A stretch of 40,012 nucleotides of DNA from Treponema sp. (GTDB lineage Bacteria; Spirochaetota; Spirochaetia; Treponematales; Breznakiellaceae): the NCBI GenBank assembly GCA_009781635.1, contig WQXU01000023.1:1-40012 (forward strand), given 5' to 3'. Both the position numbers and the translations under genes were made by a program. The notes under the pieces were generated by a model, which searched no databases, was not told where the DNA came from, and saw nothing but the letters and a program-made list of their open reading frames with translations. Shown in pieces: positions 924 to 4,420 of the stretch. Position 1 is the stretch's first letter. The number at the start of each line of letters is the position of its first letter.

Positions 924-1037
924 CAAGAACCGTGCCAAGTGGCGCAAAAATCGTAATATTTTTGAAATATTTTTTATTTTGCATTGCTAGTATTTTATCA
1001 TGTCTTTGTGAGTTTTGTAAAGGGAACGCACGTAAGG

Positions 1038-1067
1038 TTGACACAGGTTATAGATAAGGTTTATAAT
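1038..1067 (+). promoter_or_regulatory. Consensus sigma-70 promoter of the HTH-ATPase-STAS regulator
   Basis: The -35 box TTGACA (1038-1043) and the -10 box TATAAT (1062-1067) are both perfect consensus, separated by 18 bp. The expected transcription start is near 1074, giving a leader of about 25 nt to the ATG at 1099. Such a strong promoter on a regulator gene usually implies repression, which fits the direct repeats that overlap the -10 box. Confidence 0.85.
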
Positions 1068-1085
1068 AGATATTGATAAGGTTTA
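1053..1085. promoter_or_regulatory. Putative operator: direct repeat GATAAGGTTTA x2, 22-bp period
   Basis: Two identical 11-bp copies of GATAAGGTTTA lie at 1053-1063 and 1075-1085. Their start-to-start distance is 22 bp, close to two helical turns, so both would face the same side of the DNA. The first copy overlaps the start of the -10 box and the second covers the likely transcription start. This arrangement is typical of a repressor site. Because the next gene begins with an HTH-like segment, autoregulation is a reasonable guess. Confidence 0.55.
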
Positions 1086-1087
1086 CA

Positions 1088-1093
1088 TGGAGG
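1088..1093 (+). promoter_or_regulatory. Ribosome binding site that decides the regulator start (ATG 1099, not 1087)
   Basis: TGGAGG at 1088-1093 overlaps the upstream in-frame ATG at 1087 and sits 5 nt before the ATG at 1099. The upstream ATG has no ribosome binding site of its own. The 1099 start is therefore preferred, giving a protein starting MPGVRKRGEE. Confidence 0.75.
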
Positions 1094-1098
1094 CGACC

Positions 1099-2103
1099 AT
1101 GCCGGGAGTTCGAAAACGAGGCGAGGAAATTAGAGAGTTTATTCTTGCCAATATAACTGACAATAAAAATATAGCCGCTTTAACATCTCAGCAATATGCT
1201 ATTTCGCTGCCTGCAGTATACAAACATATTGACAGATTGGTATTGGAAAATCAAATAATAAAAAAAGACGGGAATTTTTTCTTACAATCAAAACAATATA
1301 AATATGTATACGATAATAACAAGACATTAAGCGAAGATGTTGTTTGGGAAAAAGATATAAAAAAACATTTCTCCGGGGTTCCAAAAAATGTTTGGAATAT
1401 TTGGGTTTATGGATTTATGGAGATGTTTAATAATGCCCTGGAACACTCAAAGGGAAAAAAAATTCGTGTAGTTGTTGAAGAAAATAAGTTATTCACCTGT
1501 ATATTTATCTCTGACGATGGAATTGGAATTTTTAAAAATATCAAACTAAATTTTAATTTACTTGATGAAAAAGACGCTTTACTTGAATTAGAAAAAGGGA
1601 AACGAACAACTGATACTGCAAAACATTCTGGTCAGGGAATATTTTTTACTTCCAAGATTTTTGACAATTTTATGATTTTTTCCAACGGGATTACATTTGA
1701 TTCAAAACCGGAAAAAAAACATCAAATAAATACTAATGCGGTAAAATTTTCCACTTTGGTTTATATGCGTTTAGAAAAAAACAGCTTCAAAAAAATAAGG
1801 GATGTTTTTGATGAGTATTCAACAGAATCTCCCGGAGATTTTGATAAAACAATTGTTCCTGTACGTATGGCAAACACAAATGATCTTGTATCCCGTTCAC
1901 AGGCAAGGCGAATTCTTGGCGGGCTGGAATTATTCAAAGATGTAATATTGGATTTTAGCGGCATTGAAGATATTGGACAGGCATTTTCAGATGAAATATT
2001 CCGCGTTTTCCCAAAAATGTATCCATCTACTTCGATAACAGCAAAAAATGCAAATGAGAATGTTCAATTCATGATTAATCGCGCGATTAATACAAAGTTA
2101 TAG
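1099..2103 (+). CDS. HTH / GHKL-ATPase / STAS-like DUF4325 regulator
   Basis: This 334-residue cytoplasmic protein has three parts. Residues 1-65 look like a winged helix-turn-helix (basic start, then SLPAVYKHIDRLVLENQII). Residues about 95-220 form a histidine-kinase-like ATPase (GHKL) domain: an N-box around N111-N112 and H116, a G1 motif DDGIG at 139-143 and a G2-like SGQGIFF. No phospho-accepting His domain is seen, so it resembles an anti-sigma-type kinase rather than a sensor kinase. The C-terminal ~80 residues match the STAS-like DUF4325 pattern (SRSQARRILGGLE, then LDFSGIEDIGQAFSDEIFR). Family knowledge: such proteins join an ATPase and an anti-sigma-antagonist-like fold in one chain. 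Their targets are not well known. It has its own strong promoter, is monocistronic, and is followed by a palindromic element. Confidence 0.85.
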   Translation: MPGVRKRGEEIREFILANITDNKNIAALTSQQYAISLPAVYKHIDRLVLENQIIKKDGNFFLQSKQYKYVYDNNKTLSEDVVWEKDIKKHFSGVPKNVWNIWVYGFMEMFNNALEHSKGKKIRVVVEENKLFTCIFISDDGIGIFKNIKLNFNLLDEKDALLELEKGKRTTDTAKHSGQGIFFTSKIFDNFMIFSNGITFDSKPEKKHQINTNAVKFSTLVYMRLEKNSFKKIRDVFDEYSTESPGDFDKTIVPVRMANTNDLVSRSQARRILGGLELFKDVILDFSGIEDIGQAFSDEIFRVFPKMYPSTSITAKNANENVQFMINRAINTKL

Positions 2104-2809: not shown

Positions 2810-4420
2810 ATGAAATTTACAGAATTTAACTTACATCCTGATCTTCAAAAAGGCATTGATGAGGCCGGATACAAAGACTGTATGCCTGTCCAGCAGCAGG
2901 TTTTATCCAGCGCCTTTGGCAAACAAGACAGTCTTGCTTCGCATGACAGTCATGCTTCGCAGGACGGTCTTGCTTCGCAAGACGGTCATGCTTCGCAAGA
3001 CTTGTATGTTCAATCTCAGACAGGAACCGGAAAAACCGCCGCTTTTTTAATAGTTATTTTTCAGCGTATGCTCACTGATGAAGCGCTCTTTAAAAGAAAA
3101 GCGCTTATTATGGCGCCGACAAGAGAGCTTGCTGTCCAAATCGAAGAAGAAGCAAAAATGCTTGGGAAATATCTTCCTTTTAAAACAGGAGCTTTTTACG
3201 GCGGTGTCGGATATACGCAGCAGGAAAAACTTCTGCGTAATAACGCGCAAATCCTTGTTGGAACTCCCGGCAGAGTACTCGACCTGAACAAATCGGGCAG
3301 GATGAATCTTATGGAGATTTCATTTCTTGTTCTTGATGAAGCCGACCGCATGTTTGACATGGGCTTTTACCCGGATTTGCGCAAGCTGATAAAAATGGTG
3401 CCTTCCGCAGACCGCCGACAGACAATGCTGTTTTCCGCAACGCTGAACGCATGGGTAAAAAATCTTGCATGGGAGTATACAAAAACGCCGTTTGAAATCG
3501 AAATTGAACCGGAGATTGTCACCGTCGAAGAAATCACGCAGATTCTCTACCATGTTCCGTCTCAGGAAAAATTTCCGCTTTTGCTTGGTATACTCAGGCG
3601 GGAAAAACCGGAAAGCGCAATTATTTTCTGCAATACAAAAAAACACACGGAGATTATTGCAAAACGCTTAAAATTAAACGGGTTTTCCTGCGAGTTTATA
3701 ATCGGCGATTTGCCGCAGGTGAAACGGCTCAAGGTGATTGACGATGTAAAGGCCGGAAAGATCAAACTCCTTATTGCTACCGACGTTGCGGCCAGAGGTC
3801 TTGATATTGAAAGCCTTGCAATGGTTGTTAATTATGATGTTCCTGCAGAAGCGGAAAACTATGTTCACAGAATCGGAAGGACAGCGCGTGCGGGTAAAAC
3901 CGGAAAGGCCATTACGCTTTCAAGCGAGCAGGATGTATACGGTTTGCCTGCCATTGAACGCTACATAGGAAAAAAAATTCCGTCAGAGATTGCAATGCAG
4001 GAGCTTTACGAAGAAGACTCAAGCGCAGGCCAGAAGATACACACCGATTTCTCTCTTTCTGCAGGAAGAAATGAAGAAAGGCGTTCAAGCGGGAAAAAAT
4101 TACGCGACAATAAAAGAAAGACAAGCTCTCATGAACAACATAAACACAAGGCAGCCGGGTTTGGAAAAAATAAAAAATCTCCGGCGCAAAAGCCCAACGG
4201 ACTTGACATGTCACGCCTTCCCATGGAAGAGCGGATGGCAATATATAAAAAGAAGTACGCAGGAGCCGAAGCGGCCGGCGGAAAAAAGGAACATAAAAGA
4301 AGGCAAAAGCATCATTTAGCCAAGAAACCTGCCGCGCAAAACGATACTTCACGCCCGGAAAAAACTTCCCCGAAAAAGGGATTATTATCTAAACTATTAG
4401 GAATATTCGGAAAAAAATGA
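2810..4420 (+). CDS. DEAD-box ATP-dependent RNA helicase with an inserted repeat
   Basis: This 536-residue RNA helicase shows the DEAD-box motifs in order: Q motif (MPVQQQ, 25-30), Walker A QTGTGKT (70-76), PTRELA, DEAD (176-179), SAT (209-211), ARGLDI, and HRIGRTARAG from H353. A basic, low-complexity tail of about 110 residues follows the helicase core and probably contacts RNA or ribosomes. It should unwind short RNA duplexes in ribosome assembly or mRNA decay (RhlE/CsdA-like, exact subfamily unsure). The oddity is residues 40-63, four copies of a six-residue unit (D-[SG]-[LH]-A-S-[HQ]) placed between the Q motif and Walker A, where the family normally has only a short GRD-type linker. No clear ribosome binding site precedes the ATG. 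The stop overlaps the next gene's start by 4 nt (ATGA), so translation of the two is probably coupled. Confidence 0.93.
   Translation: MKFTEFNLHPDLQKGIDEAGYKDCMPVQQQVLSSAFGKQDSLASHDSHASQDGLASQDGHASQDLYVQSQTGTGKTAAFLIVIFQRMLTDEALFKRKALIMAPTRELAVQIEEEAKMLGKYLPFKTGAFYGGVGYTQQEKLLRNNAQILVGTPGRVLDLNKSGRMNLMEISFLVLDEADRMFDMGFYPDLRKLIKMVPSADRRQTMLFSATLNAWVKNLAWEYTKTPFEIEIEPEIVTVEEITQILYHVPSQEKFPLLLGILRREKPESAIIFCNTKKHTEIIAKRLKLNGFSCEFIIGDLPQVKRLKVIDDVKAGKIKLLIATDVAARGLDIESLAMVVNYDVPAEAENYVHRIGRTARAGKTGKAITLSSEQDVYGLPAIERYIGKKIPSEIAMQELYEEDSSAGQKIHTDFSLSAGRNEERRSSGKKLRDNKRKTSSHEQHKHKAAGFGKNKKSPAQKPNGLDMSRLPMEERMAIYKKKYAGAEAAGGKKEHKRRQKHHLAKKPAAQNDTSRPEKTSPKKGLLSKLLGIFGKK
2927..2998. repeat. Four in-frame 18-bp palindromic tandem repeats inside the helicase gene
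   Basis: Four units of exactly 18 bp lie at 2927-2944, 2945-2962, 2963-2980 and 2981-2998, followed by a partial GAC. Each unit follows GAC[AG]GTC[TA]TGCTTCGCA with a variable last base. The unit is internally palindromic: GTCTTGC-TTC-GCAAGAC at 2967-2983 is a perfect 7-bp hairpin, and GCATGAC-A-GTCATGC at 2941-2955 is another across a unit boundary. Units 1 and 3 encode D-x-L-A-S, and units 2 and 4 encode D-x-H-A-S. Confidence 0.95.

Follow-up and report, generated by a model that had tools for sequence, protein, structure and literature searches.

The system closest to the locus described here is the pair CapK and CapS, in which single-stranded DNA (ssDNA) switches on the GHKL kinase CapK; Ser54, the residue that CapK phosphorylates, belongs to CapS, a STAS-winged helix-turn-helix (STAS-wHTH) protein and proven autorepressor that also represses a downstream promoter (Chambers et al., EMBO J 2026; PMC13373217). 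In that paper, an immune operon is located downstream in 348 of 443 CapK/CapS cases (PMC13373217). Here we describe a gene for a 334-aa protein in a 40,012-nt stretch of DNA (the window, meaning the whole stretch analysed), which shares with CapK+CapS the HTH, GHKL and STAS modules, the SpoIIAB/SpoIIAA-like folds, and a winged helix joined to STAS and acting, putatively in our case, as repressor of its own promoter. However, CapK and CapS are encoded by two adjacent genes (HTH-STAS-GHKL and STAS-wHTH), whereas here a single chain carries the modules in the order wHTH-GHKL-STAS; their operator consists of TTAA palindromes, in contrast to direct repeats of ATAAGGTT; Ser54 is absolutely conserved in CapS, and its putative counterpart in the window protein is Ala295; and CapK+CapS is mostly followed by an immune operon, whereas the present gene is solitary and its 11 loci have no shared flanking family (CapK+CapS features as given in PMC13373217).

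The VapK-VapS-VapC system has control by GHKL and STAS proteins in common with this locus (PMC13373217), but across the 11 loci the gene has neither a separate STAS gene nor a toxin-like gene as a common neighbour. Three loci of spirochaete relatives (L195, L213, and L218) have a vapKSC-like layout, in which a GHKL ORF is accompanied by a separate DUF4325 ORF, whose acceptor position is Ser, and by a third ORF that matches nothing in Pfam. The anti-sigma switches SpoIIAB-SpoIIAA and RsbW-RsbV resemble the protein in their GHKL and STAS folds, as judged by model, but here one chain also includes a DNA-binding domain and the canonical Ser position is not Ser. The C-terminal domain is a member of PF14213 (DUF4325) above the cut-off, and the separate DUF4325 proteins examined mostly possess Ser, whereas the fused ones possess Ala or Gly. 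In the literature searched, nothing was found on the function of DUF4325 by name, nor anything relevant on the fused architecture or on tandem operators except PMC13373217. An earlier note on this DNA had presented ATP-dependent self-repression and release as not described for the family, which holds in that no publication on a fused wHTH-GHKL-DUF4325 protein was found in that literature, but in CapK+CapS, with its two separate proteins, a GHKL kinase has already been described to release a STAS-wHTH autorepressor through a serine that is missing from most fused proteins (PMC13373217).

Domain architecture of the fused protein

The reading of a DNA-binding segment, an ATPase and a STAS-like module in one protein, also made in the earlier note, is confirmed by Pfam for DUF4325 and supported by predicted models for the wHTH, GHKL and STAS folds. 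The model of the 334-aa protein (mean pLDDT 84.7, pTM 0.80) places a winged helix at the N-terminus, followed by the GHKL and STAS domains (Table 1). Modelled residues 63-229 have the Bergerat fold with N, G1, and G2 boxes, and the best structural match is SpoIIAB (1til; Z 14.9, 133 aligned residues, 2.4 Å), followed by RsbW. The boxes comprise E108, N112, DDGIGIF, and HSGQGIFF, with E108, N112, D139, G141, G143, G178, and G180 invariant in 21 aligned sequences, and the Pfam HATPase families score below their cut-offs (HATPase_c_2, 24.1 bits vs. 27.4; HATPase_c, 19.9 vs. 26.4).

The C-terminal domain matches PF14213 at 50.9 bits against a curated cut-off of 23 (E 1.3e-13). When this domain was modelled alone (mean pLDDT 79), STAS proteins and STAS-bearing transporters made up the top 34 rows of structural matches, of which RsbS is the best (6jhk; Z 7.1, 83 aligned residues, 3.6 Å), a match that is only moderate since Z is under 8. 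Sequence search of solved structures gave weak domain-level matches only, hhalign yielded no usable alignment between the DUF4325 and canonical STAS profiles, and the viral structure library gave no match at E 0.001 or better. Where the second STAS helix begins, 11 of the 13 separate DUF4325 proteins read from relatives have Ser (12 read by motif, and L220 separately), while the equivalent position in the fused proteins is Ala in 31, Gly in 22, and Ser in 2 (55 read of 58 listed). From motif and fold, we infer that this Ala/Gly position corresponds to Ser54 of CapS and Ser58 of SpoIIAA.

A promoter-embedded repeat array that moves with the gene

The earlier note had pointed out a full consensus promoter, TTGACA-18-TATAAT, which indeed matches at 12 of 12 positions, and two identical repeats at 22 bp over the -10 box and start site. 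The pair of GATAAGGTTTA is exact, with no other exact copy within the window, and its positions are as described, given that copy 2 runs into the -10 box and copy 3 covers the presumed transcription start, which is placed from the -10 position. The copy number has to be corrected: TAAGGTTGACA lies exactly 22 bp 5′ of copy 2 and its end forms the -35 box, therefore the array consists of three copies, in which (A/G)TAAGGTT recurs at a 22-bp pitch (1033, 1055, and 1077). The start codon had been set at 1087, but ATG 1099 is the likely start, because GGAGG is spaced for it and orthologues commonly begin with MPG.R. An Rfam search found no match within the window.

Table 1. Features of the promoter and gene in the window.
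Feature	Position	Strand	Basis
Putative operator copy 1, TAAGGTTGACA, holding the -35 box	1033..1043	+	Sequence; 22 bp before copy 2; kept in orthologues
-35 box TTGACA	1038..1043	+	12/12 match with 18-nt spacer; promoter embedded in 11/11 orthologues
Putative operator copy 2, GATAAGGTTTA, running into the -10 box	1053..1063	+	Sequence; orthologues
-10 box TATAAT	1062..1067	+	12/12 promoter match
Putative operator copy 3, GATAAGGTTTA, over presumed transcription start	1075..1085	+	Sequence; orthologues
Shine-Dalgarno GGAGG for ATG 1099	1089..1093	+	Sequence; orthologue N-termini
Gene for wHTH-GHKL-STAS (DUF4325) protein, 334 aa	1099..2103	+	ORF; Pfam; predicted model
Winged helix-turn-helix, residues 2-62	1102..1284	+	Predicted model; profile like MarR/ArsR-type regulators, E 0.003-0.09
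SpoIIAB/RsbW-like GHKL domain, residues 63-229	1285..1785	+	Predicted model; invariant or near-invariant residues
STAS-like domain DUF4325, residues 250-331	1846..2091	+	PF14213; domain model like STAS
Ala295, position mostly Ser in separate DUF4325 proteins	1981..1983	+	Motif reading

Among 195 Breznakiellaceae genomes, 16 have a match to the protein, and in 11 of them, the window's own included, the match spans the full length with at least 55% identity. The genome scan for further paired sites that the earlier note had proposed was run on these 195 genomes and found the exact 22-bp pair at 20 places, every one of them the promoter of a wHTH-GHKL-STAS gene; the 11 genomes concerned are exactly those with a full-length orthologue, and the pair is absent from the other 184. 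Pairs with one mismatch occur at 22 bp in 12 further genomes, at a chance-like level compared to a reversed-pattern control. The note had also named the lack of repeats before close orthologues as evidence against its model, but three to four copies with the promoter embedded in them are kept in all 11 full-length orthologues (the window's own among them). The 35 units from these loci, collected with AAGGTT as the search word, read (A34/G1)TAAGGTT with TAAGGTT invariant, and the base following GGTT (G in the -35 unit; elsewhere T, except for one A) serves to make the TTGA of the -35 box or the TTTATA of the -10 box. The promoter spacer is 17 at loci with a first pitch of 21, and 18 at all others. 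Mean information is 1.75 bits per column in the repeats, 0.51 in the spacers, and 0.27 upstream, across 11 loci that are not independent because orthologues share descent. On this comparison of sequences, the array of three to four direct repeats is conserved with the wHTH-GHKL-STAS gene only and moves with it, and since flanks and spacers are unconserved and neighbours are not shared, promoter and gene behave as one unit.

When tandem sites with 2-24 nt between copies were allowed in the 195 genomes, 34 places were found, 23 at the promoter of the gene and 11 elsewhere with scattered spacings; two of these 11 have a 21-bp pitch, both in gene-bearing genomes (G000:C1 and G181:C41). At G000:C1:177779-177811 (L245), in the window's own genome, a second ATAAGGTT pair 21 bp apart lies inside a 70-aa lysine-rich ORF and is probably due to chance. 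Single ATAAGGTTKAYA sites outside the array number 46 in about 29 Mb of gene-bearing genomes vs. 25 in about 28 Mb of gene-lacking ones (p ~0.014). Of the former, 36 were fetched and 33 of these fall within an open frame of at least 120 codons, so that the outside sites would mostly be chance occurrences; one lies 81 nt before an ORF (G000:C16, L248), and a few further targets are possible given the small excess in gene-bearing genomes.

Distant relatives and genomic setting

The upstream 160 nt of 44 homologues (11 orthologues and 33 distant) were scanned for self-similarity, with 277 regions upstream of other ORFs at these loci as a control, which is conservative since a few divergent neighbours sharing the operator region remain in it. 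The best self-match falls at a lag of 21 or 22 in 14 of 29 non-redundant distant relatives vs. 22 of 277 controls (Fisher p 1.8e-7), and a TTKAC pair at 21/22 is present in 11 of the 29 vs. none of the controls, the TTKAC core having been chosen after seeing these 29. In a held-out set of 14 relatives unused before (12 and 2 from two further searches, with L130, which has only 62 nt of upstream DNA, counted as a miss), the pre-set 21/22 TTKAC pair was found in 2, weaker than in the first set. At least two TTKAC occur in 10 of the 14 vs. 9 of 277 controls; a spacing of 11 or 21-24 between copies is seen in 8 of the 14, this set of spacings having been picked after looking. Left out of the upstream counts were L013-L015 (no clear start), L017 and L113 (contig edge), L112, and the near-duplicates L098, L100, L103, and L106. 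Hence tandem TTKAC-type repeats are, from these sequences, common among relatives of the protein, with a pitch (21/22, or 11 plus 23/24) that differs between subgroups; not all relatives share the 22-bp pitch, because several held-out relatives have 11 and 23/24, and some relatives (L012, L111, L118, and others) have no clear array before the gene. In one subgroup on viral contigs (L097, L107, and L110), TAAAGTTAA/TATAGTTAA units precede the gene in both orientations, a partly palindromic arrangement unlike that of other relatives.

The gene stands alone, with different neighbours at each locus. The ORFs flanking the gene at the 11 loci were set against one another and assessed by eye, and no family recurs among them apart from chance pairs of loci; the distant loci likewise have no common neighbour beyond two- and three-locus coincidences, and no partner gene or defence island is common to the orthologue and distant loci. 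Comparison for an empty site through the neighbouring helicase found no shared synteny. Many distant relatives sit on prophage-like contigs, and viral contigs carrying a relative numbered 27 in one scan and 30 in another, mostly the same contigs. A two-query tblastn search, shown to work on plasmids, found no relative in INPHARED (phages) or PLSDB (plasmids).

Three other elements lie around the gene in the window. A 110-bp imperfect palindrome with arms 78% complementary (2138-2248) begins 35 bp after the gene; judged from its sequence it is a MITE-like element, with similar copies (~79-97% over at least 105 bases) at seven other places in the same genome and in some relatives. A (GA)13.5 run (897-923) is located between a minus-strand lipoprotein-like gene and the regulator promoter; runs of the GA type can be phase-variable. 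Within the DEAD-box helicase gene, an 18-bp tandem repeat (2924-3001) encodes a repetitive Ser/Gln/Asp-rich insert near the N-terminus.

A candidate self-repressing switch and its alternatives

We consider a self-contained, self-repressing one-gene switch to be the best explanation of this locus, and a fairly likely one. Self-regulation of the gene is well supported by the sequence evidence, and the repeats are probably the binding site of the protein itself; the position of the sites over the -35 box, the -10 box and the start region suggests repression. We infer a mechanism in which the protein's own winged helix would bind the repeats side by side on one face of the DNA, given that 22 bp is about two turns, and block RNA polymerase, while the SpoIIAB-like GHKL and STAS domains of the same chain would control assembly on the array. 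A change in nucleotide state, as the conserved ATP boxes suggest, or a bound signal would then release the promoter and raise the level of the protein. Release would probably not proceed via Ser phosphorylation at the usual phospho-acceptor position, since this is Ala or Gly. The output of the raised protein would be exerted at the protein level, as suggested by the absence of other clear tandem targets. A more specific proposal, which we put forward tentatively and regard as doubtful, is that these proteins, with repressor, GHKL controller and STAS partner in a single chain, are mobile solitary one-gene switches that have lost the phospho-acceptor, in which nucleotide or ligand state alone would load and unload the tandem operator-promoter, the only clear DNA target would be the gene itself, and the released protein would provide the output, perhaps through retention of a host sigma factor or a role in phage defence.

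The sequence evidence fits either sign of regulation, and the protein could instead bind the same repeats as an activator or remodeller of its promoter, acting when the GHKL-STAS module is turned on. One orthologue, L002, carries an additional, fourth copy 5′ of the one at -35, as such positive autoregulation might predict; however, the other 10 of the 11 have no copy there, the promoter is already near consensus, and the copies cover the -10 and start region, an unusual place for an activator, which makes this reading rather unlikely. The repeats might also be sites of a different host regulator or duplicated promoter elements that the protein does not bind; TTKAC resembles the -35 hexamer TTGACA, so that part of the signal is promoter-like. 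Yet the extended unit ATAAGGTT is kept in copy 3, where no promoter element needs it, its exact 22-bp tandem is missing in the 184 genomes without a full-length orthologue, and if a host regulator were involved, tandem sites should also occur elsewhere; we regard this explanation as very unlikely.

A third possibility is a one-protein version of CapK/CapS, in which ssDNA arising from DNA damage would activate the GHKL kinase to phosphorylate the STAS domain of its own or a neighbouring chain, releasing the operator with an anti-phage output. The three domain types are the same, CapK being ssDNA-activated and CapS an autorepressor (PMC13373217), the kinase-box residues are conserved, and relatives occur on prophage-like contigs. 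Such a version is nevertheless improbable, given that the Ser position is Ala or Gly in 53 of 55 fused proteins, the window protein included, that the domain order is unlike that of either CapK or CapS, that no downstream operon is common to the 11 loci, and that PADLOC matches are few among 109 neighbour proteins of viral-contig relatives (seven families, one member each). The invariant Ser265 and Ser267 (SRSQA) could serve as an alternative phospho-acceptor.

Returning to the self-repressing switch, recurrence of the arrangement in distant relatives suggests a self-contained system related to CapK+CapS but distinct from it. If true, it would open a first functional approach to proteins in which a winged helix, a GHKL domain and DUF4325 are combined, and would represent the one-polypeptide equivalent of CapK/CapS and SpoIIAB/SpoIIAA, with phosphorylation of the usual serine unavailable. 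Operator and protein fit within about 1.1 kb without partner genes, which would make the switch directly testable.
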